Shown here: piece by piece, positions 8,224-46,175 of the stretch | Numbering within the stretch: position 1 is the stretch's first letter | How the letters are laid out: the number at the start of each line of letters is the position of its first letter | Source of the DNA: a virus | Direction: 5' to 3' (one strand) | Virus record (IMG/VR): IMGVR_UViG_3300047499_000113 | Coordinates: 1-64,000 of that record | Length of the DNA: 64,000 bases | The notes under the pieces: model-generated | Databases searched by the model: none | Told to the model about the DNA's origin: nothing | Seen by the model: only the letters and a program-made list of their open reading frames with translations | Translations under genes and position numbers: made by a program

Positions 8224-8850
8224 TCACTTGGGCTTCTGAACGAGGCCCATGCGCTCGGCAAGAGAGCGCATGACAGCATCACGCTCCTGGTCGTCCAGTT
8301 CATCCCAAGTCTTGCCGGCAGCGGAAGCCTTCGGCGAGGCGAGCTTCGCCTCGAGGCGAGCTTTACCGATCTGAGCCGCCGGGTGATGCTGGATAGCCGG
8401 AACGATGGTCACCGTAGGCTGGGCGGGCACCGTATCCGCAGGGGCGACCCCAGGAACGATGGAGCGATTCACCAGCAATTGGTTGCCGGACACGTTTGTC
8501 TTGGTGGCGACTTCGTACACGTGAGTGACGGTTTCGAAAACGACGGCGACACGCTTGCCGTAGTCGGCATACCAAAGATCACGAGTGGCCTGGTCCATGG
8601 CGTGGCTGATGTAAGCCGAGGGGAGCGCTGCCATCACCAAGGGCTGAGACGGGTCCTTGGACCAAAGACTACCCTGGATGGCATCTCCGAAATCGGAGAA
8701 CGACACATCATTCGGGAGCGTGTACTTGACGCCCGCCACGTAGAACACGCCGGCGCGAAGTATGTATTGCTGGCCAACAATATCGATGCGGTAGTTCAGA
8801 TCCAACTGACCGGCCGCGCCGACACCGTTATGGTAGTAGATCCCGAACAT
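8224..8850 (-). CDS. Tail-fibre-associated hypothetical protein
   Basis: A 208-aa protein I do not recognise. The first 130 residues look like a beta-rich domain. From about 130 follows a Pro/Thr/Val linker, then an Ala/Lys-rich helical tail (about 160-208) with a DELDDQERDAVMRSLAERMG helix. The ATG at 8850 overlaps the stop of the preceding fibre gene by one base (TAATG), so the two are translationally coupled. Small genes directly after a fibre gene are often fibre chaperones, assembly factors or capping proteins; that role is inference from position only. It ends one base from the stop of the plus-strand lipoprotein, with no room for a separate terminator. Confidence 0.7.
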   Translation of the reverse strand: MFGIYYHNGVGAAGQLDLNYRIDIVGQQYILRAGVFYVAGVKYTLPNDVSFSDFGDAIQGSLWSKDPSQPLVMAALPSAYISHAMDQATRDLWYADYGKRVAVVFETVTHVYEVATKTNVSGNQLLVNRSIVPGVAPADTVPAQPTVTIVPAIQHHPAAQIGKARLEAKLASPKASAAGKTWDELDDQERDAVMRSLAERMGLVQKPK

Positions 8851-26891: not shown

Positions 26892-29632
26892 TAGTGCGCC
26901 ACCCTTCTCGGATTGAGCATGTTCCCGGGAACTCGATAGACCGCAGCAGCGCTGTCACTGAGACCGGGCTGCAATCCGATGTTCACGTTCTGGTCGAACT
27001 CACCCCAGCGACTAAAGACGACCATAACGAGAGTGCCCTTCCTCCCGATGCTTCCTACACCGATGCCTCCATTGAAATCGGCTCGCAGTTCCATGAGAAC
27101 GGGGAACGCCACTTTGTGCTGCTGCGCCAAAGACATCGACTGACCCCAAATGACGGGCGAGTAAATCGGAGGACTCCCGGAATCGGATCGCGGCCAGAAG
27201 TTCCGGTTGTCACCATCGATTGTCGTGTCTGGCGCGAGCTTGTAGAGCTGCACCTGGCCGGGATCGGGAGAGTATGGGATCATCGCCTGCAACTGCAGAT
27301 AGCCGGCGTTGATGCCGAATCCGACAACCGAAATTGCACTCGGGGAATCGAGCCGTGCCTCCGGGTAATCCGATGGTGGTAGCAAACCGATCGGAATTTG
27401 AGCGCTGGGAGAGACATACGGGAACGAATCGTCCGGGCTACCCGATCCTTGAGTGAGCAGGTGAATGGCTTTGGGGATCGCGCGAGCGTAGAGCGGCAAC
27501 GTGATCGGACCACCCGACGGGACCGGAATGGACTGAATCGCTGCAGTGTTGTACCAGATCTGGTACGAATCGTCCGGCGCGGCACCGACCGTAGGAAGAG
27601 GACGAAGCGCTACGAAGGTCGCCTGCACTGGCGTGTTGGCCGAGACAGCGGGGCTCAAAGTTACCTGCGTGTAGTTCGCGTTCACCACGTACGCAGTCGT
27701 CGTATACGGCGGGTTGATACCGTCGTTGATGGATACGGTTCCGGAGAGCTTCTCCGGGATCCAGATAGCCGCACCGGTGGAATCCGCGTAGTACATGTTC
27801 GGCCCCTGCGCAGTCGTGCGAAGACGCGCCGCGACCTCACGATGCCCTGGATTGGCCCACCAGAGGTTGGTCGTGTCAGTCGGAGACCCGGGATTCGTGA
27901 GTGCGAACCGTCCGCCGTCACTCGTTGGCGAAAGCTGAGTGGCGTCTACCCACACCGGTAGACTGGCTGCCGGTGGAGTCCAGAACGCCACCGAATTGAG
28001 CATGTTGCGTTTGGTGCCGTTGTCATTCAAGTATTCTATCCACAGCTCTGCTTGGATCGTGAAGCTCGAGCCAGGGGCTGTGTTGAGGTTGACTGTAACC
28101 GTGTCTATTGGGCCACCGAGCGTGCTGGCAGTCAGAACGACCGACTGCGCGAAGACCGTGTTGGTCAGATCCGTCAGGTCGAGGTCTGTACTCGAGACGA
28201 GCATCCGCAAGGATCCAACACCAGAGATGTTCGTCCCGGCGGGGGCCAAAGCGGCGAGATTCACAGTGCCGGGCGCCAGGTACACAGGTGACAACGCATT
28301 GAGGTGAAACACCACGGTAGTCGTGGAACCCGTCTGCGACCCGCTCGTGACAGCAATCGACTCGGTAATCGATCTGTCGCTGAAGTTGATACGAACGCCG
28401 TCAGAAGTCCCAATGTGACCAGGCGGGCTCGTGATGTCGTCCTTGTAAAGGAACGAGGTTCCGCCGATGACGTTCGAGATGCCGAAGTCTTGATTGTACT
28501 CGAGTTCGGTAGCGAGTGTGTTGTCGAGAAGGCGTTGGAACGTCTTGTCGAGGACTTCCGTCAGATCCCACGCCACGCCCTTGCGCAGATCGAGAACATC
28601 CGACACGACGATCTGATCGGCGTACAGGTTGTCGGGTCGACCGGAAACCGCCGATCCCATGAGCCCGGCACCATTGACGTTGGTCATCCTGTCGAACGGT
28701 GCGCTATTACGACGGAAGACCGCACAAATCGGAACGGCGTACATGTAGCCGTCGACTGTCCCGAGCAGCGCCGCAGAAGGAGAGTCTCCCGTACCAGCTA
28801 TCCAGAGCCCAGCGTCTCCGGGCGAAGGCATGTACTGAAACCCCGTGGGAGATCCATCGGGACCCGGAGAAGGGTAAGCGGGGATAGTGTTGGCGACTGC
28901 GACAGGGCAGTCGAGTCCGTCCGGAAAAGCCTGCAGCCATTTGTCCGGAAGATTCGAGATGACTCGATATCTGTACTGGATCTGGACTCGCCTCGCAGTT
29001 TCCTCAGCAAAGGTCGGATCCACGAGGTCGTCCGACAAATTCTGGTTGGGACTGACGTCGGGACTTTTGACGTTGCCGTAGCGCAAAATCTGCCCGGCCT
29101 GGCTTTTGTTCGTCGAGTCCGGGGCCGGCGACACCAAAGCCCTCCAGACCTCGAGAATGACCAGATCGGTGCGTTCTCCGCCAAGAGGCGGAGCCGGAAG
29201 AACAACGTAGTTCGTTCCTTGCACGCCGTAATTGGGCAGCGTCGTGTTGGCTTCGATGGCCGTGAGGTTGAAGTTCACGAGCCAGCCGTTGACGTTCACC
29301 GTCGAGGCGGATAGAGCGAACGTGTTGGCCGTGGTCGAAGACGTCGTGTCAGGCGCTAGAAACGTGTAGTCTCCCGTGACGTTCGAGCGCTCGAGGAAAT
29401 CTGCGTTGAGCCATCCCGAAGGGAGAAACTGCTGACTCAGGAGCCGAATGCCGGCCGCCCCAAGGATCGACTGCAGGAGGTTGATCTCCCAGTCGGCGGA
29501 CGGCTTGTTCTGCTGGATGACAAGCTGCTCCCACGAGTGGTCCTGGGACGTGTATGCGCCACTCCCGTTCGCAGGTTCCTGGACCTTCTGCGGGTTCTGA
29601 CTGACGTTCGGTCCGAGGTTCTCGAATCCCAT
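26891..29632 (-). CDS. Baseplate-periphery protein, paralogue of the 1,616-aa protein
   Basis: A 913-aa virion protein. Residues 30-260 match the N-terminal part of the 1,616-aa gene: QQNKPSADWEIN, LPSGWL, LVILEVWRAL, YGNVKSPDV, DDLVDP and RVQIQYRYRVI. Further matches are a GLWIAGTGD / GLWRAGTGD segment, YAVPICAVFRRNSAPF versus YAIPICTVFRRNGAGF (near 295-315), and a NLYADQIVVSDVLDLR versus LFADQIAATDILDMR segment. The remainder is beta-rich without recognisable enzyme motifs. The paralogy extends over about 400 residues, so this is the docking or core region, and the C-terminal parts have diverged. It probably sits at the baseplate rim and carries the propeller adhesin encoded next. Confidence 0.76.
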   Translation of the reverse strand: MGFENLGPNVSQNPQKVQEPANGSGAYTSQDHSWEQLVIQQNKPSADWEINLLQSILGAAGIRLLSQQFLPSGWLNADFLERSNVTGDYTFLAPDTTSSTTANTFALSASTVNVNGWLVNFNLTAIEANTTLPNYGVQGTNYVVLPAPPLGGERTDLVILEVWRALVSPAPDSTNKSQAGQILRYGNVKSPDVSPNQNLSDDLVDPTFAEETARRVQIQYRYRVISNLPDKWLQAFPDGLDCPVAVANTIPAYPSPGPDGSPTGFQYMPSPGDAGLWIAGTGDSPSAALLGTVDGYMYAVPICAVFRRNSAPFDRMTNVNGAGLMGSAVSGRPDNLYADQIVVSDVLDLRKGVAWDLTEVLDKTFQRLLDNTLATELEYNQDFGISNVIGGTSFLYKDDITSPPGHIGTSDGVRINFSDRSITESIAVTSGSQTGSTTTVVFHLNALSPVYLAPGTVNLAALAPAGTNISGVGSLRMLVSSTDLDLTDLTNTVFAQSVVLTASTLGGPIDTVTVNLNTAPGSSFTIQAELWIEYLNDNGTKRNMLNSVAFWTPPAASLPVWVDATQLSPTSDGGRFALTNPGSPTDTTNLWWANPGHREVAARLRTTAQGPNMYYADSTGAAIWIPEKLSGTVSINDGINPPYTTTAYVVNANYTQVTLSPAVSANTPVQATFVALRPLPTVGAAPDDSYQIWYNTAAIQSIPVPSGGPITLPLYARAIPKAIHLLTQGSGSPDDSFPYVSPSAQIPIGLLPPSDYPEARLDSPSAISVVGFGINAGYLQLQAMIPYSPDPGQVQLYKLAPDTTIDGDNRNFWPRSDSGSPPIYSPVIWGQSMSLAQQHKVAFPVLMELRADFNGGIGVGSIGRKGTLVMVVFSRWGEFDQNVNIGLQPGLSDSAAAVYRVPGNMLNPRRVAH

Positions 29633-31873: not shown

Positions 31874-34800
31874 TCAGCTCAGCACAGCGATGGAGAACGA
31901 ATTGGTCGCTGCAGTGCGTATCAGCTTGTAAGTGTGGAAATTCCCGTCTGCCCAGTTGAAAGCTCGACGGAAAAGGCACTTGTTGGCGTTGAGGTCCTGG
32001 ATCTTGATGAAGTTCACGCTGTTGACGGTGTCGAAACCGATGGCTGCCGTGAACCCGGGACCCGCCATGCCGCTGATACCGATGTAGATATTCGTGTCGC
32101 CCGTGATGGGGTCTGGCACCGCCGCGTTGATGCGCACGCTGAAGGTCACGTCGAAATCCAGCGACGTGGCGTCGGGTAGTCCGGACGGGCTGATGTACAC
32201 GGTCTTGGTACCTGTGCCCGTCGTGCTGTAACGCAAGAAGTCGGTCACGCCCACGCTCAGGAGCTGGAGGGTGACCGCTCCCGGATTGTCCGCCGCCAGG
32301 ACGAACGGCGTGAACTGCGCCACGTCGAGTCCGAGCTTGATTGACGCCGGCCCGCCGACGAAGATTGAAGAGGGTGGACCGATGGTGGGACTGGTCAGGC
32401 GCAGCCTTCCGTCGCCATTATTTGACGCAAAGTTCGCCGGGATTCCCGGCGTTCCGTTGATACGAGACACGACCGCGCCGATGGTAGTGTCCGTCGCCTG
32501 GAACTGGACGATAATCGGTGGGTTTGTATCGATCGCAATACTCAGATTATCGCCGGCCTCGATGGAGAATGGTTGAACATTGGCTCCGACCAAGTTGACC
32601 TGTTCGGGGAACGAGCCGCCTTCGTACGAGAGCGTGTGATCGGTCTGGTACTTCAGACCGCCCATGTGAAGGGTTTCGTCATCCGAAAACGGAGCGACGA
32701 GTCCAGCCTCTCCCGTCGTTATGGGGAAGAACTTCAGATTCTCGTACAGGACGCCGGACGGCGGGTCGATGTGAATGAAGATGGAGTTGCCGTGGACGCC
32801 CGGCTGAGTCAGGTGCAAGTTGTACGCGAGGTTGATGGCATCGGCGAGGACTGCCATCGTTCCTTCGTCGACAGCATCTGGGGCAGTCACCACATTCACG
32901 GTGTCATTCATCACGTGGGCGGGAGCGTCCGAGTCGTTGACGACGGCCACTCTGTGCGCGTTGAAGTTGGCCTTGAGGGCGTTCGCCAAGGCGATACCGG
33001 TCGGCAAATCCACCGCCGGCGGCAGGAGCACGGCGTCGAACTGGTCGTTGGACAAGTGCACGCGGTACTGCACGACGTGCTTGTTGAACGCCGCGAGGAG
33101 GTTGTTCAGGACAACGAGAGTTCCGGCGAGGAATGGCTGTACGACGAACGCCGTGCCGAGATTGTAGCCCTCGAGGTCCACGATGAGGTGGGAATCCTGG
33201 ACCAGGATGTGCTGGTTGTAGTGGTTGGCGAGGTTGTTCGCGAAGGTGATTCCGGTGGGCAGGTCGACAGGCGGAGAATCGGAGTCGCTGTTGAAGCGGT
33301 CGATCCCTTTGTGCACGCCGGGCGCGTTCGGTCGATCGACGTTGACGATGTGCCGATTGAACTGAGTCTCGATGTCCGGCAGGAGGGCGAGAGCGCTCGG
33401 CAGGTCGAAGCAGGGCGGAGCTGTCGAAATGTCGACAGTGTCTGGCCGAACGTGCACTCCCACTTCCGACAAGTGGGCGTTGTAGAACGCCTGCAGGTCG
33501 TTGGACAGAGTGATGAGAGTCGGCAGATCCGATGCGGTGAGAGGCTCGAGGTTGATGATGTCGATGACGTTGTGAGGCCAGGTCCTTTCGACGTGCTCGA
33601 CGAAGACCTGTTGGAAATTCTGCACCAGAGTGGCCAGGCTGGGTGCATCCGTCGCCGGCGGAGCCGTAATGGCGAACAGAGTGTCCGCGATGACGTGGAC
33701 GCCGGCGGCCACGCGGTGAGCTTCGTAATTCGTGCGCACCTGATTCATCGCCGAGATGGCGTTGGGCAAGTTGAACATGCCCGGGATGGGAACGGTGTCT
33801 CCTGGATCGTTCGTCTGATGAACGCCTGGCGAAATGAGGTGATTGTTGAAGGTCGGAATGACCTGCGTGAAGACGATGGAAATGAGTTCCGTGATGGGCG
33901 TGTCGGACGACGTCGCGTTGGTGGTGTCGTCCTCGAGGTCTGAGAGGAACCCACTCTCATCGACGAACTGAAGGGCGGGGACGGCCTCTTGCAGAGTCGC
34001 GGTCTTGCTCAGCCCACCACGCGACTGCAAATCCTGCGTCATGGGCACCGGAGGAGTGCCCTCGCCCAGGTTTGTGAAGGCGGCCAGAGCCGGGTTCGAC
34101 AAGAAGTCGTCGGAAGGAGTCCCTCCCGAGTAAACCGTGAAACCTGCGTGCTCATGTGGCAGCTGAGTGTGCAGGTGCTCAGGAGAGACGACCGCGTTGG
34201 CCTGATTGAGCGTCTGGTGCGGCGGGATGAGGCGATTGGTCAGCGTCAGCTTGCCGATCGAATACTTGATCGGACCCCAAATGACGCGAGCGATTTCTTC
34301 GGGGTCGAAACACCCGAACGCGATGCATTCCCTGTTGCCAGTAATCGGCTGCAGGAAACTCGCCGCAACCCCTGGAAGCTTGATAGCGTCGTAGTTGATG
34401 GAGATGACGGGGATGTTACCGCCGTCGAGAAAGACGGACACATTCCCTGACGGGTCACGCACCACACGATAAGTGTGGGACTGAGTCCAATCGACCTGAG
34501 AGATGTAGTACGAGGCAAGAAGCGACGGATCTCCGCCCGAGTAGATACCGATGAATCTCCTGGAAGCCGCCGTAGGATCTGCGACCTTCAGGTCGCGGAA
34601 TCCGCAGACCGACCTCCAGTCGACCACGGACATCGCTGTACTCGGGTCGCCGTTGCCGACCGCCGTACCGCCAGACCCAAAAGTCATGGCTGGACCGACG
34701 ACACCAGGGTGGAGGCTGTTGTACGAGAAATTCCCGAGCGAGATGTTATCGCCCAGGACTATGCAGATCCCGGCTGTCTTGTTCGTGAACAGGTCGACTG

Positions 34801-37800
34801 AGTGGATCTGCCCATCATTCCAGGCGAACGGGAAAGCTGCTTGCTGATCGAGAAAGCCGGTTGTCGAATTGTACGACAGCACATTGATATATGTGCCGCC
34901 GAATTGGTCTACCGCGTACTGCAGCTCTACATTCTTGCCGGACGTGCCTTCATCGACGTTGACGAGGACTCCAGCGAATTGCAAATTGGTCCCCGAGACG
35001 ATCGGGTTCCCCGGAGTGAATGACACGACAGCGAGCCGGAAGTCGACCTTCCAGTCCACAGCGGGATTGAAGACGGGGCTCGTGTACAGAGTGTTGTTCA
35101 GAGTGTAGACAAGGAAGTCGCTGGTGCTCGAGTCCGTGATCCGCATCGTGCGGCCGAGCATCTCGGACGCCTGGCTTCCAGAAGCCACCCAGTCTGGCGT
35201 GTCCTGGTCCGGGAAAGTCGCGCCAAACCAAGAGACTTTGGGTTCAGGATTGGAGTCGCGTCCGAAGTATGTGCCCAGGGCCAGACCCAACTTCTCCAGT
35301 GCGTTTCCGCCGAGAAGTCGGAGCTGAGAATTCGCGCCGAGCGTCTGATCCGTCAGAACGATGGCGCCGGAGCCGTTGTCCGCGGCGAGCGCGAAGCCTA
35401 CCGCGGCGTTGATGACGGTCGAAACCTGCGCTGTGGTCGTCGCTGGTGAGGTGAAAGTGACGGTGATGGGCTCCGCCGAACCGATGCCAATAATGGCGGT
35501 GTCGTTGGTGGCGATGCCGAAAGGTTGCGTCGATGTCCCGGTGACAGTGGCCGCGCTCGGGGTGTCCTGCAGGAACAGAAGCCACGTCGAGAAGATGTCA
35601 TCGTCGATGAAGACGCCGGCGCCCTTGTTGTCCAGGCTGAATGTGTAGAATCCAAGGCTCGCCGTGAACTCCACGGTGCTGGCGGCCACTCGAGTGAGGA
35701 TAGGCTCGAGCCGCAAGAACCCGCGATACGCACCGGTTGTCATACCGAGCGCGGCAATGTCATCGAGCGGAGCGCTGGCAGTCGAATCCAGGACGAGCTT
35801 GTTGAGCGACAGTCGCTCGAAACCCGACTGCCCAATAGTGATCCACGGGGCGGTGGGGTCGAGTTCCGGGAGGACCGTGGGCTCGTAGTCGACCGCTTTG
35901 TTGTCGCCAATCTGGTCTTCGTCGATGGGCGTGACATCAACGCGGATGAAAGCCCACTTGCTGGTCGAAGTGCTTCGGCGCCACACAGCACCGAAGAACA
36001 CTTGCGACATCGGATTGAGCCGAATGTCGACGTCGGACGTTGCAGGAAGCTGCGCGTGGGTCACGCTTGCTGTGGGGACAACAGCGCCGCTGGTGTAGAG
36101 GGAAACGTTCCCCTCCGAGTCGCGGAAGATGCGGTAAGTCGCGTCGATGGACCAGTTGACTGCTCCACTGACCCAGCTGTCCTCGAACTCCGGGAAGCCA
36201 GAGTTGGTGAGAAACCCGATCTGCTGCACCAGACCCACCGAGTTGACGGTGTCGTTGTTGTAGTGGATGCCAGGAGCGGTCAGGTGCGTGTTGAGGTTGT
36301 CACGCAGCTGGTTGACCAGGGCGAGAGCGCTCGGGAGATCTGTCGAGTCCGGCGCCGTAATCTGGTCGGCCGAGTCAGCGAGCACGTGAATGTGACCGCC
36401 GCCGTAGGACATGTGCTGATTCATCAGCACTTTGAGGCGGTTCGCGAGGATGATGAGAGAGGTGAGATCCGTCGCGTTGACGATATCCACCGTGTCTATA
36501 GTGTCGTTCGGCCGATGCACACCCGTAAGGATAAGGTGAGCGTCGAAAGCGGCCGACAGATCGTTCACCATTGCAATGGCGGACGAAAGATTATTGGCGT
36601 CGGTGAGGAGCAAGCCGACCAGAGCGACTTTTTGACCATCCGCGAGGCCGAAGCCGACGCCCGTGAAGGTCCCATCCGGAACGGTCTGCGACACGCTCAC
36701 GCGGAAAGCTGCGGAGACTGTGCTGTCGAAAGTGAGGTCGATGGGATGCGTGTAGAAAGGAGGCTCGATTCCCGGACCTGGACTCGGGTTAGAGTCCACA
36801 ATGGTGAGCCCGGTCCCTCCAGGAGCCAAGCTCATCGTGCCTTGACCCTCGAGCGTCCAGGGGTCTGTCGCCTGATCGGGCAGAGCCGTCGGGTCGTACC
36901 TAATCACGACCTCGAACACTTCAGCGTTGAGGACCGGGAAGAAAACCCGGTTAGTTGGCACGTTCAGCAGCAGCGTGTTCGGATCGTTGAGGACAGCGCT
37001 GTAGCTGCGCTGGAGCATCTTGTACTTCCAGCCCGTGCGCAGCGGTTGATACGGAGACTTGATGGTGGGAAGCGCGTTCGTCGGGTCGACGAGGGTTGCT
37101 TTGGCCCGATACGTGTAACCCGGCACGCCCATGAATCCGCGGTTGCCGGATTCGTTGAGGACGAACTCTGGAGAGTTGAGCCTCTGAAACTGCGTCGGTG
37201 GATTTCCGAGAAAATCGTAGTTGATGGTGACGGTGTCGGTCGGTTGTGGTGTGTTCGTCAGCACCACTGCACCGAGGAGACCGAAGACAGCGTCGACACT
37301 GGTCTCGATGCCGTTGACGAAGACCTGCACATCTGCAGGGCTGTCAGCCACTTCCCCGATGCGCGGGTCCGAGAGAACCCAATTGAATGGACCGATGTTG
37401 ACGCCCGACTGGAAGGCGACTTGAGCGGATGGAACCGTGACCCTGTCGACCGTGTCTCTCTCGTAGTGGTAGACGCCGCTGTCACGGTGAAGTTCGTACG
37501 CTTGCCGGAGAGCGTTGGCCAGATAGAACGCGCTTGCCAGATTGCTCGCTGGCGGCAAGAGCACGACGTCTTGCGAGTCAGGATTGAGGTGAACGGGAGG
37601 AACGCCGCCGGTGAGCCCGATGTGGTTGAGGAACTTCGGCAGAAGCTCGTTGAGGAGAATGATCACACTCGACAAGTCCACCGAATTTTGCGCCAGAACC
37701 ACGTCTGCCGGGTCGATGGTGCCGTGCACATATGGCGGCGCTCCCGTCCCGCCATTGACCACGTGGGCGTTGAACTCAGCCTTGATGTTGTTGGCCAAGG

Positions 37801-38116
37801 CAACGACGGCCGCAAGCGTCACCTGAGGATCCGAAGCGTCTAGCGTCGCGTTGCCAAGTGCCAGAGTCGTCGAATTCGGCACCGCCGCGATGGGAAAAGT
37901 GCCATCATTGCGTCCGTGCGGACTGCCGGAGATGGTGATCGTCTTGCCGATGAAGGTCAGGTCGAACGATGCAGTCGGGATCTGCACCAGGTTCGGACCG
38001 ATGACCATGAGGTTGGAGCCTGTGAGCAGCGGGAGTGGCTGCTTGACGATCACACCCTTGTTGGTGAACAAGGTGCGGTCGCGCACAGACTGGAGGGCGG
38101 AGAGCGGGACAGTCAT
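31874..38116 (-). CDS. 2,080-aa virion protein with His/Asp helical repeats and LamG-like domains
   Basis: The largest gene in the window. It holds about 13 copies of a 50-60-residue helical repeat with core pattern DLPSAIALxNxLKxxFNxH, then 5-9 residues, VHxxxD and D-x-V-x-x-P. Examples are FNAHLSEVGVHVRPDTVD and FNNHLISPGVHQTNDPGDTV. They cluster at residues about 108-228, 508-628 and 1,408-1,782. Between them are beta-rich LamG-like domains (NWSIDATYRIFRDSEGNVSL; WTQSHTYRVVRDPSGNVSVF) and two hook-like units (STVINAAVGFALAADNG near 905; SRINGTPGIPANFASNNG near 1,888). Too beta-rich for a tape measure. Probably a long baseplate or fibre component. The conserved His and Asp suggest metal binding; untested. 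ATG 38116 overlaps the previous stop by one base. Confidence 0.75.
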   Translation of the reverse strand: MTVPLSALQSVRDRTLFTNKGVIVKQPLPLLTGSNLMVIGPNLVQIPTASFDLTFIGKTITISGSPHGRNDGTFPIAAVPNSTTLALGNATLDASDPQVTLAAVVALANNIKAEFNAHVVNGGTGAPPYVHGTIDPADVVLAQNSVDLSSVIILLNELLPKFLNHIGLTGGVPPVHLNPDSQDVVLLPPASNLASAFYLANALRQAYELHRDSGVYHYERDTVDRVTVPSAQVAFQSGVNIGPFNWVLSDPRIGEVADSPADVQVFVNGIETSVDAVFGLLGAVVLTNTPQPTDTVTINYDFLGNPPTQFQRLNSPEFVLNESGNRGFMGVPGYTYRAKATLVDPTNALPTIKSPYQPLRTGWKYKMLQRSYSAVLNDPNTLLLNVPTNRVFFPVLNAEVFEVVIRYDPTALPDQATDPWTLEGQGTMSLAPGGTGLTIVDSNPSPGPGIEPPFYTHPIDLTFDSTVSAAFRVSVSQTVPDGTFTGVGFGLADGQKVALVGLLLTDANNLSSAIAMVNDLSAAFDAHLILTGVHRPNDTIDTVDIVNATDLTSLIILANRLKVLMNQHMSYGGGHIHVLADSADQITAPDSTDLPSALALVNQLRDNLNTHLTAPGIHYNNDTVNSVGLVQQIGFLTNSGFPEFEDSWVSGAVNWSIDATYRIFRDSEGNVSLYTSGAVVPTASVTHAQLPATSDVDIRLNPMSQVFFGAVWRRSTSTSKWAFIRVDVTPIDEDQIGDNKAVDYEPTVLPELDPTAPWITIGQSGFERLSLNKLVLDSTASAPLDDIAALGMTTGAYRGFLRLEPILTRVAASTVEFTASLGFYTFSLDNKGAGVFIDDDIFSTWLLFLQDTPSAATVTGTSTQPFGIATNDTAIIGIGSAEPITVTFTSPATTTAQVSTVINAAVGFALAADNGSGAIVLTDQTLGANSQLRLLGGNALEKLGLALGTYFGRDSNPEPKVSWFGATFPDQDTPDWVASGSQASEMLGRTMRITDSSTSDFLVYTLNNTLYTSPVFNPAVDWKVDFRLAVVSFTPGNPIVSGTNLQFAGVLVNVDEGTSGKNVELQYAVDQFGGTYINVLSYNSTTGFLDQQAAFPFAWNDGQIHSVDLFTNKTAGICIVLGDNISLGNFSYNSLHPGVVGPAMTFGSGGTAVGNGDPSTAMSVVDWRSVCGFRDLKVADPTAASRRFIGIYSGGDPSLLASYYISQVDWTQSHTYRVVRDPSGNVSVFLDGGNIPVISINYDAIKLPGVAASFLQPITGNRECIAFGCFDPEEIARVIWGPIKYSIGKLTLTNRLIPPHQTLNQANAVVSPEHLHTQLPHEHAGFTVYSGGTPSDDFLSNPALAAFTNLGEGTPPVPMTQDLQSRGGLSKTATLQEAVPALQFVDESGFLSDLEDDTTNATSSDTPITELISIVFTQVIPTFNNHLISPGVHQTNDPGDTVPIPGMFNLPNAISAMNQVRTNYEAHRVAAGVHVIADTLFAITAPPATDAPSLATLVQNFQQVFVEHVERTWPHNVIDIINLEPLTASDLPTLITLSNDLQAFYNAHLSEVGVHVRPDTVDISTAPPCFDLPSALALLPDIETQFNRHIVNVDRPNAPGVHKGIDRFNSDSDSPPVDLPTGITFANNLANHYNQHILVQDSHLIVDLEGYNLGTAFVVQPFLAGTLVVLNNLLAAFNKHVVQYRVHLSNDQFDAVLLPPAVDLPTGIALANALKANFNAHRVAVVNDSDAPAHVMNDTVNVVTAPDAVDEGTMAVLADAINLAYNLHLTQPGVHGNSIFIHIDPPSGVLYENLKFFPITTGEAGLVAPFSDDETLHMGGLKYQTDHTLSYEGGSFPEQVNLVGANVQPFSIEAGDNLSIAIDTNPPIIVQFQATDTTIGAVVSRINGTPGIPANFASNNGDGRLRLTSPTIGPPSSIFVGGPASIKLGLDVAQFTPFVLAADNPGAVTLQLLSVGVTDFLRYSTTGTGTKTVYISPSGLPDATSLDFDVTFSVRINAAVPDPITGDTNIYIGISGMAGPGFTAAIGFDTVNSVNFIKIQDLNANKCLFRRAFNWADGNFHTYKLIRTAATNSFSIAVLS

Positions 38117-40158
38117 CAGGCGCTCACGATCTCGTTTCCGTAGAGGTCCTGCACTCCGTAGATATCAAGAGAGTATTGGGCTTTGGCCATTCCGATGACG
38201 TTGATGCTCAGAACTCTATCGTCGACCCACTCCGAGCCCTTCGTCAACAGTCCCGGTGGCCCAGTAATGACGATGTCCGCCGGCGTGAGTGCGGCCGGGC
38301 GGATGGGTTTAGAGAAGTAGACTTGCACGGCGTCCTGCTCCCAGCGAACACCATTGTTCGTATCGACTACGCCAATCTTCGGGATGGCCGACGCTACGAA
38401 TGGAGGCGGCTCCACACCGATGAAGGGAGCCTGGATCATGAACCTCCTCGGCACGGTGCCGTTCCTCACGTCGATGAAGGAATACTGCGATTGCGCCTTC
38501 ACCTGATAGGCCGCACCGTTGAGCATCCCGAGGTCGATCTGAAGAGTGTCGTAGAGTTTGGCCGAGTAGAGCGACACGCCAGCGGAATTGTGAACGCCCA
38601 CGTTCACGTTGTGCGCCGTGAACGAGTTGGTCAGCCGCTCGAGAAGCAGAACGGCGGAGGGGAGGTCCGTCGCGTACCGCATCCGGACCAAGTTCGGATC
38701 CGGATAGTTGTGGTAGACAGTCGAGCTGGCGTGGTCGAGGTAGATGTCGCGCACGCGGTTGACTGCGGCGATGGCCGAAGCGAGACTGGCTACCGGGAAT
38801 TCGCTCGGCAAGAAGTAGTTGATGAAGTCGGGTTGCACATGTCCCGCGCCGTACGGCGTCGTGATGTGCTGATTGTACGACTGCATCAGGTCGGTGACGG
38901 CCAGAACGAGAGCCTGGATGGAAGCGGTGACGTCGGCTCCGTCTGTAGGAACAGCGCTCGTTGGTCCAAGCACTGAAAGACTTTGGAGTGCCGGAAGCTG
39001 GATTCCCTGCGAGAATCGGAAACCCGCTTGTTGCGGGATCACCTGAGTGCCGACCACACGAGGCGGCGTCGCCAGAGGAAGAACTGAAATGCTGCCTGTG
39101 TAATCACCAGGATTCGTTGTACGAGCGAGATCTTCGCTTTGAATTTGCGCAGTCAGCTGGTACGACGGATTCGGGCTCGTCGCCGCGACCTCCACCTGGG
39201 CGAAATACGTGCAGGTATCCACCGCCGGGAACGCGAGGCCGTCCTGTGCCGAACTCCAATCGCGCACCGACTTGATGACCACGGGCGAACCGTTGGACGT
39301 CACCGTCCAGTTCGCGGTGTTGATGACCTCAGCATGGGCCATCGTGCAGCTGAAGAACACGTTGATGAAGGCGCGGTTGTACCCGCTGGGTGCGTCGGAA
39401 ACGCTGTCGACCCATGCATCGATGATCTGCGGCTGGCTGAGGACAGCGTATGTGTAAGGCTGCGGTGCCCGCAAAGTCAGTGACAGAGGGATAGTAGCCT
39501 GCACTTGATTGTACGACCCGTCGACCACGTCCGCGAACGAGATGGTGTAGCTCGAGGCTGTGTCCATCGCCGGATTCAGCTCGAACCGAAGGACGTTGGC
39601 CGGGAACGATCCATCCCACGGAATGCGGGTCATGGGTTGAGGTGTCCCTCCCATTGCCGCCTGGATGGTCGCTGTGCACGCTGGAGAACTCGGACCTACG
39701 GACCGGTCGAAATAGATGTCGACCATATTCCGGAGCGAGAGAAACGCTCCGATGGCCAGAGGAGGGTTCGGCACGTTTGCCCGAAAGTTTCCAGCACTCG
39801 GAGTCACACTGTTGCCATCTGGACTCGTGACGCCGACGATGGAGAGCGCGTAGACCGTCTGGAATGTGAGCGACTGATTGAGCGTGAGGGCGACGGACCT
39901 ATGGTCCGCGTCGTAGAAAGAGACGGTGACTACGACCGGGACGTAGTTCGGGACCGGGCCGCTGACGGCGAGCATCGAGTAAGCGCCCGGTTGAAGGGCG
40001 GACTCGTCAACTTGGTCGTCGAACTGAACTCGAATAGTTCGCTGATCAAGCACGTGCGGTGTGAACCCGAACGGCAGAGGCGGAAACTGGCCGATACCGC
40101 CAAGAACGATCTTGCCTAGCTGGCTACCGGCGCCTCCGAGCTGTCCAGTGAACGGCAT
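38116..40158 (-). CDS. Ig-like-domain virion protein sharing the His/Asp repeat
   Basis: A 680-aa protein. Residues 30-135 and 590-680 look like SbsA/Big_5-type Ig domains: RTIRVQFDDQVDESALQPG with YALSIVGVTSPDGN, and VQVYFSKPIRPAALTPADI with YSLDIYGVQDLYGN. More Ig-like sandwiches lie between. Residues about 419-524 carry two units of the helical His/Asp repeat that dominates the next gene (LMQSYNQHITTPYGAGHVQ; LTNSFTAHNVNVGVH). The N-terminus has a Gly-rich arm. Sharing of that repeat and the 1-base gene overlap suggest that both proteins occupy the same structure. Likely a baseplate-to-fibre connector. Confidence 0.72.
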   Translation of the reverse strand: MPFTGQLGGAGSQLGKIVLGGIGQFPPLPFGFTPHVLDQRTIRVQFDDQVDESALQPGAYSMLAVSGPVPNYVPVVVTVSFYDADHRSVALTLNQSLTFQTVYALSIVGVTSPDGNSVTPSAGNFRANVPNPPLAIGAFLSLRNMVDIYFDRSVGPSSPACTATIQAAMGGTPQPMTRIPWDGSFPANVLRFELNPAMDTASSYTISFADVVDGSYNQVQATIPLSLTLRAPQPYTYAVLSQPQIIDAWVDSVSDAPSGYNRAFINVFFSCTMAHAEVINTANWTVTSNGSPVVIKSVRDWSSAQDGLAFPAVDTCTYFAQVEVAATSPNPSYQLTAQIQSEDLARTTNPGDYTGSISVLPLATPPRVVGTQVIPQQAGFRFSQGIQLPALQSLSVLGPTSAVPTDGADVTASIQALVLAVTDLMQSYNQHITTPYGAGHVQPDFINYFLPSEFPVASLASAIAAVNRVRDIYLDHASSTVYHNYPDPNLVRMRYATDLPSAVLLLERLTNSFTAHNVNVGVHNSAGVSLYSAKLYDTLQIDLGMLNGAAYQVKAQSQYSFIDVRNGTVPRRFMIQAPFIGVEPPPFVASAIPKIGVVDTNNGVRWEQDAVQVYFSKPIRPAALTPADIVITGPPGLLTKGSEWVDDRVLSINVIGMAKAQYSLDIYGVQDLYGNEIVSA

Positions 40159-40169
40159 AAGGCACCTTA

Positions 40170-41795
40170 CTAGAAGGTAGCGATCAGCATCCAGTCATTT
40201 TGCCCGTCGCTGACAAACATGTAGGAGGTGCGTGAACTGACGGGTGTGAACGAGAGCCCAGTCTGCCCGTCCATTGTGTCCGCCCCGGTTGGAACCAAGC
40301 CGACTGCATTCGTCGAGGTCGCGATGGCCTTGACCACGATGGGAATGCCGTAGTAGAGAGCGGCCTCAGGGAAGAGGACGTTGACCGGCTGGTGCGTGGA
40401 ATTCACGCGCACGATCTGTCCGGGCTCCGCAAGGACAGTGATCGCCGATTGCTCAGGCGTGGGGGAATAGCTGGTGTTGATGGGCCCGGTGACGCCTTGC
40501 GGTCCCTGAATACCCGTAGCACCGATGGGCCCTTGAGGACCTGTGGCGCCTTGCGGTCCAGTCGGTCCGATGGCACCCTGAGGACCAATATCGCCGGTCG
40601 GGCCCTGTACACCAGTGGCTCCCGGGGGCCCGCCAAAAGGACCAGTTGGTCCTTGATCTCCCTGCGGCCCCGTGGCACCCGCAGGTCCGGTCGGACCCGT
40701 CGCGCCCGTGAGACCCTGGTTTCCTTGGGGGCCCTGGACGCCGGTCGCGCCTTGCGGGCCGGTCGCCCCAACAGGGCCAGTTGGCCCGAGAGGGCCGGTG
40801 AATCCGATAGGCCCGGGAGTCCCTTCGATACCCTGGACGCCGGTCGCTCCTTGGGGTCCCGTCGCACCTTGCGGGCCGACTGCACCCGTAGGGCCGGGCG
40901 GACCACCGAATGGGCCGGTGGGTCCTTGCGGACCAGCGGAGCCCGTTGGTCCGGCAGGCCCTGCAGGGCCTGTTGCACCAGCTTGACCGGTTCCCTCGAG
41001 CGCAATGGCTGAAAGGTTGCCCGCGTCGAACTGGATTTGGTTGCCACCTACGCTTCGCCACTGGACTTTGACGGTATACGTCCCGGCGGGAAGTTGAGTG
41101 CTAACAAAGTTGTTCGAGACAATTGCGGCTTCGTTAGTGTTCACCTCATTGCGCCGAATCTCCGAGCTAAGTTGCCCGTCGATGTAGAGAATGATGCCGA
41201 TGGACTCCGTGGTGCTAATCTGCTCCCACTGGATATCGGTTTGAGCGTAAATAGCGCAAGTTGCGCTGGTCGTAATAGTCGTGCCGAGCCCAGGAACATC
41301 GACAAACGACGTCGACGTAGTTGTGGCGGGCCCGACTGCAGATGCGTAGGCAGAATCGATCGGGTTGTTCGGACCTGCAGGCCCTGTAGCGCCATCAGCC
41401 CCGGTGGCTCCCGGGATACCCTGCGGCCCCTGGATTCCCTGCGGACCCTGAGGGCCAGTGGAGCCCTGCGGACCGATTGCCCCGGTTGGTCCCTGGACAC
41501 CGGTGGGCCCGATGGTGCCCTCGACGAAATTGGTCAGAGCGCCAGCAGTCAAAACGTGAGTGACAGTCGCTCCCGGGAGGTGCTGAGCCGGAGGCGTGTT
41601 CTCGATGCCGCGGATGACAGAGAAGACGCTGCCCTGAATACCCGTCACCAGCATCAACTCGTTGTCGATGCGGATGCGGAACTGCGGCGCCGGCGGGAAC
41701 TGGGTGACGTTCGTCGTCTGGACGTAGTTCGTCACTGCGTCCAGCGGCAGCTGCAGAGTCCCCTGGGCTGTGTTGGCAAATTGCTCTTGGGCCAT
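40170..41795 (-). CDS. Collagen-like tail fibre protein
   Basis: A 541-aa fibre. Residues 31-90 match the phage fibre docking domain ([41 protein letters not shown]). Residues 93-142 and 273-439 are Gly-X-Y collagen-like repeats rich in [10 protein letters not shown], with short GG interruptions (PFGGPP at 295-300 and 386-391). Residues 144-271 form a beta domain ([16 protein letters not shown]). Residues 440-541 form a tip domain ([43 protein letters not shown]) seen on many fibres. It should trimerise through the collagen helix and bind a surface receptor. The ribosome site lies in a strong predicted hairpin (41,797-41,831). Confidence 0.88.
40479..40979 (-). repeat. Collagen-like Gly-X-Y repeat, segment 2
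   Basis: About 165 codons of Gly-X-Y triplets, giving a strongly repetitive DNA tract (GGXCCN-rich) inside the fibre gene. Repeated [10 protein letters not shown] units could recombine and change fibre length in frame. Confidence 0.9.
41369..41519 (-). repeat. Collagen-like Gly-X-Y repeat, segment 1
   Basis: About 50 codons of Gly-X-Y triplets between the N-terminal docking domain and the central beta domain of the fibre protein. Confidence 0.88.
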
Positions 41796-41844: not shown

Positions 41845-42690
41845 CTAGAAATCGCTGCTGTGATCTTCTCCGACCACTTGCTTGGCCCGTTTGAAGCCCG
41901 CGGTGTCCAACCCGGCGATCCCCTCGACGAACTTCCGGAAGTCCTCGTAGCTGTAGTTCGAGAGCGCGAAGGTGAACGAATCCGTCACCTTGGCTGGCTG
42001 CGGAGAGACCCCGTTCGGCCCGGGAGGTTGCTGCTGGCCGATGTAGGTATCTTGCAGGATATACTTGAGTCTGTAGAGCGTGTGCGCCGGACGGATGATC
42101 CCGAGCAGAAGTCGGATGTTCTTGTCGGCCAGGAAAATGTCGACGTTTTGGTTGGCGAACGGCAAGAAGATATCGACCTCGAAGCCGAACTCATCCGAGA
42201 TGTCGAGACCTGACGCCGGATTGCGCGCCTCGAGGAAGTTCTCCCGCACGATGACTGTGCCGCCAGTCACCAGTTCGACAGCCTTCTGAATGGACGCTGG
42301 AATGGAGCCCTTGAAGTAGATGGAGACGAGCTGCTGCAAGAACGCGCGAAATTGCAAATCAGTCTGGTCGATGGTCGGCATTTGGCCGGCGCCGTAGCCG
42401 AACGACTTCGGGAAAAGCATGACAGTGAGGACCTGCCACAGATACTCGCCGCGCGTCGCCGAGAAGTATGTGTCGTTCTGGATGTCCGAGAGCATGAGGC
42501 GGACTCGAGCCAGAGCGATAGCCATCGCCTTTAGCTCGCGCGCATAGTTCGGGCCGTCGATCTTCGAGGTGAAGTATGACGACAGAAGCGAAATGAGAAT
42601 GGTGAACTCGCGCTGAGTTTCCTGCAGGAGACGGTTGTTGTACTCCTCACCACTCTCGAAGACGTTCTGGTTAACCCGAACGATGGCCAT
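41845..42690 (-). CDS. Baseplate wedge/tail-periphery protein
   Basis: A 281-aa protein. It starts with a long helical region (residues 10-75, LLQETQREFTILISLLSSYF) and continues with an alpha/beta domain that ends in a HTLYRLKYILQDTY strand. That resembles the RPAHT-x-Y-x-L segment near the end of P2 gpI/Mu gp48-type baseplate proteins. Its position directly after the baseplate J-like gene also matches the J-I gene order of contractile tails. I therefore call it a baseplate wedge partner, gpI-like in position. The ATG overlaps the J-like stop by one base. Confidence 0.62.
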   Translation of the reverse strand: MAIVRVNQNVFESGEEYNNRLLQETQREFTILISLLSSYFTSKIDGPNYARELKAMAIALARVRLMLSDIQNDTYFSATRGEYLWQVLTVMLFPKSFGYGAGQMPTIDQTDLQFRAFLQQLVSIYFKGSIPASIQKAVELVTGGTVIVRENFLEARNPASGLDISDEFGFEVDIFLPFANQNVDIFLADKNIRLLLGIIRPAHTLYRLKYILQDTYIGQQQPPGPNGVSPQPAKVTDSFTFALSNYSYEDFRKFVEGIAGLDTAGFKRAKQVVGEDHSSDF

Positions 42691-45600
42691 CAGCTACCCG
42701 TTGCTGCTCGGTACGTGATGGTGAGGCTCCCCGGCGTGAGGTACTCGACCGACGAAGTCGAGATGTCCTTCGACCCAGTGTCCTTGTTGACGATGTAGGT
42801 CGCCGAGAACGTGTGGTTTCCCGGAACGTCAGGCGGCTGGATGCCATTGTTGAGCGAGATGACCACGTGATTGGCCGTCAAAGCGATTCTCGCCGCGGCG
42901 ATGGCAGACGGAGTGACGTATGTCGGGGCGAGCGTCGCATCGTCCGAGTAACCTTGGATGATGGCGCCCTGTGCGCCGATAATCCAAGCCTGTCCGACGG
43001 CGGAACCAACAGTTGCCAGTGACATCGCCGGCGTCATCTGCAGGTTGTCCATGAAGACGCCGTGGAAGATGGTCGCGGGACCGCCGCCGTCTGTCGTGTT
43101 GAACGGAAGAGCCTGCTGCAGAATGTAGACCGCATTGTTGAATTGAGACAGAGACGACAGGAAGATTCCGTCCGGAGGAATCGAATCACGCAGCCGCATG
43201 GCGCCCGTCGCCAAGGTAAGCTGCGTGAACGGCTGCACGATGAACTGCACGCCCGTGTCCGAGTCTTTGACCGTTTGGGTCATATCGGACTGATAGATCG
43301 TGCCGCCAACCGGCTTCGAGTCCGTGAGCACGGTGACTGCTGTACGGATGTTGCTATCGACCGATACCTGGTTAGCGTTGGGGTTGAGCTGCACGGTCAT
43401 CTCGGTCGACAGTGGATTTTCGACTGCCTGCTTGACCAAGACGTCGGCCGTCGCGTGCCGCATCGTCGCGTACTGCGACTGGAGCTGCTGCAGAACGTCG
43501 TTGATGACGTACGTAACGGCAAAGTTCTCGTCGTGTTCGTAGTCGACCGAGACCGTGGCTCCCGTAGGAATCGTGGAGCTGCTCGAACGCACGATTTGCA
43601 ACGGCGTGGTCTGCGTTCCAGGAATGATGAGATAATCGGCGTTCGGCGAACTCGGGCCGTTGTATTGGATGGTCCTGTCTTGCGAGTACACGTTCAAACT
43701 GAACGTGTTGACGCCGACCGAATCGAGCGGCTCGTTGATCTCTCCGATGAGAACGTGCAGCTCGTTGTTGACCGCGATGGATGCGCCAGAAGGAACCGAC
43801 CCGATTTGGTTGATCTCGATGTAGTCGGTCGCGATGGTGCTCTCTCCATCGATGAGAGGATCCTGCAGCTTGTACAGGGTGTACCCGTTGACCGAGTCGA
43901 GAGCGCCAGAAACCTGTCCGACGACTGACGTGACCCGCAAGATAGGCTGCAGAGTCGCCGTGAACTGGTTGTTGCTTCGGTACCGATAGTCGCCCTCGAT
44001 GAAGTCGTCGATGTTGGTGGTCGGCTGCGGAATGAGCGTCGAGAGCTGGATGGTGTTGTAGTTCAGGATGACGACGCCAGTCAGGTCGTATGCAGCGGTT
44101 GGCAGGATCGAGTGGTTGTAGAGCCCGAGGTCTTGCGACGGGTTGAAGAGCATCTGCTCTATCGGGTTGTTCTGCGAAAGCCGCGAGTCCTGCGCTTGGA
44201 AGATGAGATTGACGGCGTCGATGACGGTGAATTTGACGTTGTTCGCTTCCTGGAACTGGAAAGCGAAAGTCTCGGTCACCGTGCGCTCGTTGGTTCCCTT
44301 GACGTAGACATCGACTTTGCCGCCGATGTGCTTCATGCGCACTGGGTCCCAGTCGCGCTCCATGAACGGATCACCGGCCTGGATGACCGCCACTTGCAGG
44401 ACGCCGGGCGTCGCCAGAGCGGTCTTTTGGTAACCTCCGGGAGTGCCTGTGTCGAGCGACGACAAGGCATTCATCGACAGCTCGGCCACATCCAGGTTGC
44501 TGCCTTGGTCTTGGCCGAAGTTTGCTGACACCTCGTTGATCGTCTGCAGTCCGGTGGCTCCGGAGCTGACCGTGTCGAGAGATCCCGCCGGCACGTTCCC
44601 CGCGGAACCCGGCGTCTGTGCGATCATCTGAACGGTGATTTCGTACCGCTTGGTCTGCGGATTGTAGTACGCCTGCGCGTTGGCAGCCGAGAGCGTGACC
44701 TGTCCCTTGGTCACGAACGTCGGCGCCGCGGTATTCGTCGACGAGCTGACAATGGCTCCCTGGATGACGATGAGGTCCTTCGTCGGCAGAGCCGTCGTGT
44801 AGAAAGTCTGCGTCACCTGCGCCGGCAAAGGCCCGGGACGAGTCACACCGTAGTTCTGCGCGAGAGAATCGAACGCAGAGTTGATGATGGTCTGGACCGT
44901 CGCATCGTCGAAAACCGTGAGCGCCGTCTTGAGGTTCTGCTTGTACTGCGACTGCGCAACCGGGATGGAAATTCCAGTCAGGCCCGGGTCGTCGATGGCA
45001 AGAAGCGCCGGGAACGACTTGCTCCTCGAGACGAAGTCCGCCAGAAAGTAGGCTTTCTGGATTTCGTTCGAGAACGGCTCGATGTGAACCTCGCGGACGG
45101 TGCTGCCCGGGATGAGGCTCAGGGTCGGATTGGTCTTTTGGATCTCGCCGATGTAGTCCTGGGCGACCGAGCTTTGATCCCGGATGCGGATGCCGCGTAC
45201 TTGAGTATTGAGCGGCAGCGGCGCTCCCGTCAACTCCGCCGAGTAGCGACTCTCCTGAAGGACTCCTGTAGTCGTGTCGAAGTACACAGCCGTGATGACG
45301 TAATAGAGCGGCTGCGAGTTGTCGACCACCGAGAAGGTGTCGTTGTTCAGGATGCCGGATCCGAGGCTCGCCGTCCTGTCGTGGTTGAACAGGAAGTTGT
45401 TGACCTGCAGGAGCTTGGTGACCGTGACCTCGTACCTGTAGGCGTCAGCCGTGATTAGCGGGATGAAGTTCACCGCCTGCGTAGCGATGGTCTCCTGGGT
45501 CACGGGGTCTGTGGTCGTGGCCACGACCTTGAGCTGCGCCGTGTTGAAGTTGGCGACCGCCGGATTCGGGAAGTCGTAGCTGACGTCCGAGAGCGGGAGC

Positions 45601-46142
45601 AGAGTTGTGTCTGTACTGATGGCCGCGCTATATGGAATGAGGTCTTGGTTGAGCTTCAGGTACCCGGAGCCTGTCCCTTGGGAGCCCGTCGAGCAGTAGA
45701 CGTTGAAGCCGACAGGTGCGATGGGCGAAGAGTCGGACCAAACGATGTCGACGCTCGTCGCGTGCCTGTTCAGCGAGATTCCAGTCGGTGGCGACTGGAC
45801 GGTGAGCAGGTCGACATCCGTGACCACCGTCACAGTGATAGTCGAGGTTGGGCTCACGCTGCCATTGAGGTCGATGGCACGGAGCTGGATGGTATTGATC
45901 CCGAGGTTCAGCTGCAGGCCGGACGGAATGCTCGCCGGATTGGGGATCGTGAAATTCGGCAGCACGAGCTGCACGAGCGTTGGATCCGATACGAACCCCG
46001 CGCCGTTGACGTTGATCTGGACGTCGATCGTCGACGAATCGACCGAGCCCGAAAAGAACAACGCGAACAAGTTCGTGGTCATCACCAGGTTGATGGTGGT
46101 GCCAGAACCGTCAGGGAAGTTGATCAGGGGCGCGGTCGCCAT
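42690..46142 (-). CDS. Baseplate J/gp6-like wedge protein with N-terminal Ig/FN3 domains
   Basis: About 1,150 residues. ATG 46142 is preferred; an in-frame TTG 12 bases upstream is possible. Residues 1-220 are Ig/FN3-like sandwiches (FNVYCSTGSQGTGSGYLKL). The middle (about 500-620) carries the Baseplate_J pattern: GSAGNVPAGSLDTV, then NEVSANFGQDQGSN, LDTGTPGGYQKTAL, and a VLQVAVIQAGDPFMERD strand followed by GGKVDVYVKG. In contractile tails this protein links wedges around the hub and drives the sheath-contraction switch. At more than twice the length of P2 gpJ or Mu gp47, it has extra beta domains at both ends. It is preceded by the gp25-like gene and followed by the gpI-like gene, as in the W-J-I order of phage P2. 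Confidence 0.78.
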   Translation of the reverse strand: MATAPLINFPDGSGTTINLVMTTNLFALFFSGSVDSSTIDVQINVNGAGFVSDPTLVQLVLPNFTIPNPASIPSGLQLNLGINTIQLRAIDLNGSVSPTSTITVTVVTDVDLLTVQSPPTGISLNRHATSVDIVWSDSSPIAPVGFNVYCSTGSQGTGSGYLKLNQDLIPYSAAISTDTTLLPLSDVSYDFPNPAVANFNTAQLKVVATTTDPVTQETIATQAVNFIPLITADAYRYEVTVTKLLQVNNFLFNHDRTASLGSGILNNDTFSVVDNSQPLYYVITAVYFDTTTGVLQESRYSAELTGAPLPLNTQVRGIRIRDQSSVAQDYIGEIQKTNPTLSLIPGSTVREVHIEPFSNEIQKAYFLADFVSRSKSFPALLAIDDPGLTGISIPVAQSQYKQNLKTALTVFDDATVQTIINSAFDSLAQNYGVTRPGPLPAQVTQTFYTTALPTKDLIVIQGAIVSSSTNTAAPTFVTKGQVTLSAANAQAYYNPQTKRYEITVQMIAQTPGSAGNVPAGSLDTVSSGATGLQTINEVSANFGQDQGSNLDVAELSMNALSSLDTGTPGGYQKTALATPGVLQVAVIQAGDPFMERDWDPVRMKHIGGKVDVYVKGTNERTVTETFAFQFQEANNVKFTVIDAVNLIFQAQDSRLSQNNPIEQMLFNPSQDLGLYNHSILPTAAYDLTGVVILNYNTIQLSTLIPQPTTNIDDFIEGDYRYRSNNQFTATLQPILRVTSVVGQVSGALDSVNGYTLYKLQDPLIDGESTIATDYIEINQIGSVPSGASIAVNNELHVLIGEINEPLDSVGVNTFSLNVYSQDRTIQYNGPSSPNADYLIIPGTQTTPLQIVRSSSSTIPTGATVSVDYEHDENFAVTYVINDVLQQLQSQYATMRHATADVLVKQAVENPLSTEMTVQLNPNANQVSVDSNIRTAVTVLTDSKPVGGTIYQSDMTQTVKDSDTGVQFIVQPFTQLTLATGAMRLRDSIPPDGIFLSSLSQFNNAVYILQQALPFNTTDGGGPATIFHGVFMDNLQMTPAMSLATVGSAVGQAWIIGAQGAIIQGYSDDATLAPTYVTPSAIAAARIALTANHVVISLNNGIQPPDVPGNHTFSATYIVNKDTGSKDISTSSVEYLTPGSLTITYRAATGS

Positions 46143-46175
46143 GCCTACCCACAATACGGGGATAAGAACTGGATG

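Follow-up and report, generated by a model that had tools for sequence, protein, structure and literature searches.

A His/Asp helical repeat organized in triplets, a putative accessory domain of virion proteins in large environmental phages

Two adjacent giant open reading frames (ORFs), encoding what we call proteins A and B, lie in virus record IMGVR_UViG_3300047499_000113, within the 64-kb stretch that we analyzed (positions 1 to 64,000; hereafter the window), which is the first part of a 240-kb record. An earlier inspection of the letters alone (the sequence-only reading) drew attention to a histidine- and aspartate-containing repeat in both proteins, which raises the question of what this repeat is, how its copies are organized, and what it might do for the phage. 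We conclude that the real unit is a triplet of His/Asp repeats and that, on sequence criteria, the repeat is a new domain family, probably among accessory virion modules.

Both ORFs were confirmed, with sizes of 2,080 and 680 amino acids (aa), on the minus strand (Table 1). A hidden Markov model (HMM) built from the window copies recovered all 15 units of A, in clusters of 3+3+9 and with per-unit E values of 1e-19 to 4e-10, along with three units in B; the sequence-only reading, which gave about 13 and two, had undercounted them. The same HMM found no match in 50 shuffled copies of A, or in reversed A. Protein A contains 15 instances of the bare pattern H-x5..15-H-x3-D, as against a mean of 0.77 and a maximum of 6 in 1,000 shuffles. 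Each unit, with a period of ~41 aa, comprises a ~19-residue helix ending in a histidine (DLxxAIxLxNxLKxxYNxH), a variable loop, and a second histidine that opens the rigid segment H-x3-D-x2-[N/D], after which the next helix follows. Both histidines are invariant in 16 aligned window units, and the aspartate is present in at least 90% of them. In a survey of 272 units (39 carrier proteins), conservation reaches 98% for His22, 100% for His29, and 90% for Asp33, and position 36 is Asn (68%) or Asp (21%; together 89%). Other conserved positions are A2 (86%), L5 (67%), L11 (68%), N13 (77%), and N20 (61%). The His-His spacing is variable (6-17, modal 7); that between H29 and D33 is 4 in 213 of 226 cases, and that between D33 and N36 is 3 in 204 of 212. 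Adjacent units share only 23-43% DNA identity and the conservation of the repeat is therefore held at the protein level. The proposal that this is a real helical repeat, in which His, His, and Asp are nearly invariant, is supported.

The sequence-only reading confined the repeat to two adjacent giant proteins, which is too narrow: tail sheaths, a head-tail connector, and further proteins of phages carry it as well. A third carrier in the same phage record, located outside the window at 86833-92763 (L002:2833-8763), is a tail sheath of 1,977 aa with six units. Its identity is based upon phrog_2839 (E 1.8e-25; the sheath matches to this family were at E 1.8e-25 and 4.5e-23), the C-terminal 340 aa being the conserved sheath core, and the PF17482 sheath C-terminal domain scored 23.1 bits, below its cut-off of 26.9. 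One of the six units is split, with its histidines ~75 residues apart and a nested beta domain of ~65 residues. Beta domains of 60-75 aa, resembling PF16190 (E 1.7e-8), are nested both between and inside the units of this sheath. Where complete, repeat-bearing sheaths are 1,566-1,977 aa long and carry 3-9 units.

Relatives of the repeat were recovered from more than 20 IMG/VR phage contigs. A 241-kb phage encodes homologues of A (46% identity in the best segment) and B, plus a 3-unit sheath. Homologues of A, with 9-27 units, occur in at least six other phage records; A-like repeat proteins are found in contigs of 436, 274, 182, 134, and 69 kb, and several of these records also hold B-like proteins and repeat-bearing sheaths. 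Other proteins, encoded by smaller contigs, have one triplet each. In a gp6-like head-tail connector (contig L043; PF05135 above cut-off, phrog_40 E 1.2e-22), the triplet is located between the two halves of the protein. A sheath-array query led to 24 loci, whose confirmation by tblastn favors similar sequences; most of the query peptide patterns were helix peptides without His/Asp, and the His/Asp conservation in the matches was therefore not built in by this step. Downstream of the A homologue in the 182-kb relative lies a 258-aa gene (L081:10904-11677) with a triplet of its own; the next genes of the window phage have none. Among the 50,697 records of INPHARED, only one weak relative was found, the metagenomic phage MW202476.1 (Manatee Spring), via a tandem consensus and a more canonical array; a tblastn search of INPHARED with the single-protein A array returned nothing. 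Two scans of 84,980 bacterial and archaeal GTDB species genomes and a plasmid search, all limited by the patterns or by tblastn, found no relative.

When the units were counted, 37 of the 39 surveyed carriers resolved to 3, 6, 9, 15, 18, or 27 units. The remaining two are a protein (L045) whose third unit scores no higher than background and L083, a contig fragment in which 12 units can be read by eye, one of them missed by the HMM. Among the carriers surveyed, no complete array contradicts multiples of three. Depending on the phage, the number of units in the A-like protein is 9, 15, 15, 15, 18, 27, or 27, and sheaths have 3, 6, or 9. The L083 fragment (L083:1-4854) is a piece of a distant A-like protein from an 88-kb phage contig, in which the units are grouped as 3+4+5 and an insertion separates the last two groups; a similar layout is seen in the A protein from a different phage (3+3+4+5+3 = 18).

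The first arrays of the B-like proteins of five other phages begin with half a unit (H..D..N), continue with two full units, and end with the complementary half (helix-H), and the same half-full-full-half layout was seen in proteins of contigs L012 and L076. One B-like protein has a half, five full units, and a half, making six. Read from their sequences, these arrays are circularly permuted triplets, as a closed, roughly threefold domain predicts.

Can three units form such a domain? We modeled the second triplet of A (residues 503-636; 134 aa) with AlphaFold2, using 34 aligned triplets, and obtained a mean predicted local distance difference test (pLDDT) score of 96.2 and a predicted template modeling (TM) score, pTM, of 0.89. 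The model has one helix per unit (residues 8-26, 49-67, and 92-110), connected by loops of 22-24 residues that lack regular secondary structure, but are predicted with a mean pLDDT of 96-99. The "helical hairpins" of the sequence-only reading are thus not what the model predicts, which is one helix and an ordered, irregular loop per unit, with three units making one domain. The model also has a short strand near each end (residues 2-3 and 128-129), and these may draw the termini of the triplet together, an arrangement that would suit insertion into loops of other proteins. Foldseek searches with the model gave no match, the best hits having E values of 0.6 in PDB and 1.6 in BFVD and query-normalized TM scores of at most 0.23 and 0.37, respectively; absence from these two databases does not prove a new fold, and the triplet is possibly one. 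The best VIA-align match was a middling one, to TssK (Z 5.1; 3.7 Å over 104 residues), which, following the guidance for the tool, may reflect merely a common helical arrangement.

Profile searches agreed with the sequence-only reading, which knew of no named family for the repeat. No Pfam or NCBIfam family scored above cut-off over the repeat when A, B, the consensus, and 38 triplets were searched, and no family in a PDB sequence search covers it. Sub-threshold Pfam/NCBIfam matches to lumazine synthase, Vp25, and SPOR, and PDB profile matches to triosephosphate isomerase (E 0.007) and xylanase (0.23), were judged to be due to chance. The "head fiber protein" family phrog_6994 (best E 6.6e-6) was set aside, as its best alignments span ~25-28 helix positions of 67. 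Weak matches to phrog_37030, a family of unknown function, covering parts of several units, were found for 12 of the 38 triplets at E <= 0.01 (best 3.2e-6), and this family may hold one degenerate copy of the repeat. In the genome search, phrog_37030 scored 11-15 bits and the two PHROG families together spanned only 11-18 bits.

Our preferred explanation, which we hold with moderate confidence, is that the triplet is a new phage accessory virion domain, with each unit contributing one third, that probably holds metal and gives weak multivalent contacts. As suggested by the triplet counts, the permutation, and the stand-alone model, three units would close on themselves into a compact, roughly threefold domain; such closure would account for copy numbers in multiples of three, and for chains that can start mid-unit. 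One to nine triplets would be inserted, as a detachable module, into sheaths, baseplate-adjacent fibers, and the head-tail connector, thereby adding extra protein to the particle, mostly on its outside. In each unit, the His/His/Asp residues would most likely bind a divalent metal (Zn, Fe, or similar) and in this way keep the otherwise irregular loops in place; as displayed, these loops could bind weakly and multivalently to the host surface, or to neighboring sheath subunits.

Several observations weigh against this explanation. The units at the array end of A lack the Asp. The carrier in contig L038 matches an "internal virion protein" family, and so not every copy need be external. To arrive at multiples of three, half or split units had to be read by hand in six to seven proteins, and orthologous carriers are not independent in the triplet counts. 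Furthermore, a test across carrier classes detected no phase relation among triplets from unrelated carriers (rank 9,606 of 19,683), and the triplets may therefore have had separate origins instead of a single common ancestor. A phase signal within families is expected from orthology and was not used as evidence.

Metal binding by the His/His/Asp residues is probable. The fixed H2-D-N spacing, the invariance of the histidines across variable loops, and the order predicted for the loops would fit a metal site, although they are no proof of one; we consider a metal that pins the loops to be the best explanation for these residues, because they survive large changes in the intervening loop. The alternative to be taken most seriously, possible but in our view the less likely, is that the triplet is purely structural and metal-free, with buried hydrogen bonds from His, Asp, and Asn capping the helices and fixing the loops, and that it serves as a spacer or cement for fibers or sheath. 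The residue at position 36 and Asn13 could join such a hydrogen-bond network, the freely varying copy number of orthologous A proteins (9-27) is what spacers would exhibit, and extra sheath domains have been proposed to cement a disk (PMC9230969). However, two histidines at 98-100% over 272 very divergent units exceed the usual demands of capping, and both persist while the loop between them varies from 6 to 17 residues, and reaches ~75 in the split sheath unit.

It is improbable, in our opinion, that the arrays are open helical solenoids of a single 41-residue repeat, with the multiples of three due to shared ancestry rather than to a closed domain. The period, the contiguous arrays of 9 and 18 units, and the lack of phase memory between unrelated carriers would all suit a solenoid. 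Yet unrelated carriers most commonly have a triplet in isolation, orthologue counts step by three (9, 15, 18, 27), and a solenoid is at odds with both the permuted triplets and the confidence with which a lone triplet is modeled. Finally, an artifact of chance or composition in a long, His-rich protein (the arrays contain 33 of the 47 histidines of A) is refuted by the shuffled and reversed controls and by independent recovery of the repeat in the other phage contigs, mostly via helix peptides devoid of His/Asp.

A bolder version of the preferred explanation is that the triplet is a new fold, a single-chain, pseudo-threefold "three-histidine-pair" metal domain that is specific to uncultivated phages, has been copied and permuted across sheath, fiber, and neck, and would place many hundreds of ordered metal sites on the tail of each virion. 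We offer this only tentatively and consider it rather doubtful as a whole.

The closest functional parallel is with the immunoglobulin-like (Ig-like) accessory domains of tailed phages, for which weak adhesion or stabilization has been proposed (Fraser et al. 2006, cited in PMC9230969; T4 Hoc, PMC10385173). Multi-domain (type 3) sheaths, whose N- and C-terminal core is conserved, accommodate extra domains in the middle and are larger in jumbo phages (PMC9230969). These extra domains, which in that study are mostly Ig-like, are located away from the tail tube, and a role in adhesion or stability, including cementing of the disk, has been proposed for them; two-domain sheaths reach a maximum of 713 aa (PMC9230969). 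Like the triplet, Ig-like domains, including the extra sheath domains, are dispensable-looking modules in several kinds of virion protein. Inserted as it is in unrelated virion proteins (the sheath, the A and B fibers, and the gp6-like connector), the triplet works like an Ig-like domain without being one, and is even inserted in an Ig-like protein, as B has two Big_5 stretches (PF13205 E 5.8e-12) elsewhere than its triplet. In contrast to Ig-like domains, the triplet model is all-helical with ordered loops, has three His/His/Asp repeats, and lacks a beta sandwich, and Ig family profiles gave no match to the triplets. The extra domains of the AR9 and PBS1 sheaths are mainly helical (PMC9230969), and we liken them to the repeat-bearing sheaths by description only. 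By analogy, the triplet would have a surface position and act in adhesion or stabilization.

A second parallel is with the HxH iron-binding fibers of T4 gp37 and Alteromonas phage R22Y (PMC11705849), which share with the repeat a threefold arrangement and paired histidines recurring along tail proteins, a feature suggestive of metal. However, the repeat has H-x6-H-x3-D at its modal spacing, rather than HxH, and is built of a helix and loop with internal threefold repetition in one chain, whereas the HxH fibers are intertwined trimers (PMC11705849).

The surroundings of A and B are those of a baseplate and fiber gene cluster, in which a baseplate J/wedge gene and a collagen-like fiber gene are followed by B and then A. 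Baseplate J and the His/Asp carriers are separated by the collagen-like protein (541 aa, with GPQGPTG repeats); Gly-X-Y fibers similar to it are common. The collagen-like and Ig-like neighbors fit a fiber that touches the host. Within A, AlphaFold2 of residues 637-1405 was poor overall (pLDDT 39), with a jelly roll reaching ~84, and only residues ~1017-1201 were used. This region, which had no match in Pfam, matched CBM40 in Foldseek (E 3.3e-4) and the sialidase lectin domain, galectins, CBM66, laminin LG, and pentraxin in VIA-align (Z 8.4-10.7), although a fold in common with lectins does not show function. Based on the sheath-domain literature, the lectin-like fold in A, and the fiber neighbors, we read the triplet as a module that would add length, bulk, and weak contacts. 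Four very large ORFs (913-1,789 aa) are located in the same strand block, at 51328-56697, 12729-17579, 8850-12716, and 26891-29632; one of them may be the tape measure, and Pfam and PHROG scans of the first and last gave no match.

Table 1. Location of proteins A and B, their repeat triplets, and neighboring features in the window
Feature	Position	Strand	Extent and content	Basis or first-His residues
Protein A	31874..38116	-	2,080-aa ORF, tail-fiber-like; 15 repeat units = 5 triplets	HMM units, homologues
A triplet 1	37424..37822	-	aa 99-231	His 118/165/210
A triplet 2, modeled domain	36209..36610	-	aa 503-636	His 527/568/611
Predicted lectin-like jelly roll of A	34514..35068	-	~aa 1017-1201, between triplet 2 and the 9-unit array	
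A triplet 3 (9-unit array)	33515..33886	-		His 1426/1467/1508
A triplet 4 (9-unit array)	33155..33547	-		His 1548/1589/1636
A triplet 5 (9-unit array)	32741..33139	-	Final unit: both His present, Asp absent	His 1680/1721/1768
Protein B	38116..40158	-	680-aa ORF, Ig-like (Big_5) carrier; one triplet	HMM units
B triplet	38554..38934	-		His 431/476/516
Collagen-like tail fiber protein, upstream of B	40170..41795	-		PF01391 E 7.2e-31; phrog_6320 tail fiber E 2.9e-57
Baseplate J / wedge protein	42690..46154	-		PF04865 E 1.9e-10; phrog_6 baseplate wedge E 4.1e-19

Interchangeable Ig-like domains are known decorations of phage surfaces. Large environmental phages would possess a second module, unrelated to Ig-like domains and apparently undescribed, that does the same modular job, and its triplets would account for much of the size of the very large sheath and fiber proteins in these phages. 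At ~134 aa, a triplet is simple enough for expression and structure solution. It would also provide a natural case for the evolution of a closed threefold domain through repeat triplication and circular permutation. If the triplets do bind metal, the tail would be a dense metal carrier, which would bear on proposals that marine phages act as iron ligands.

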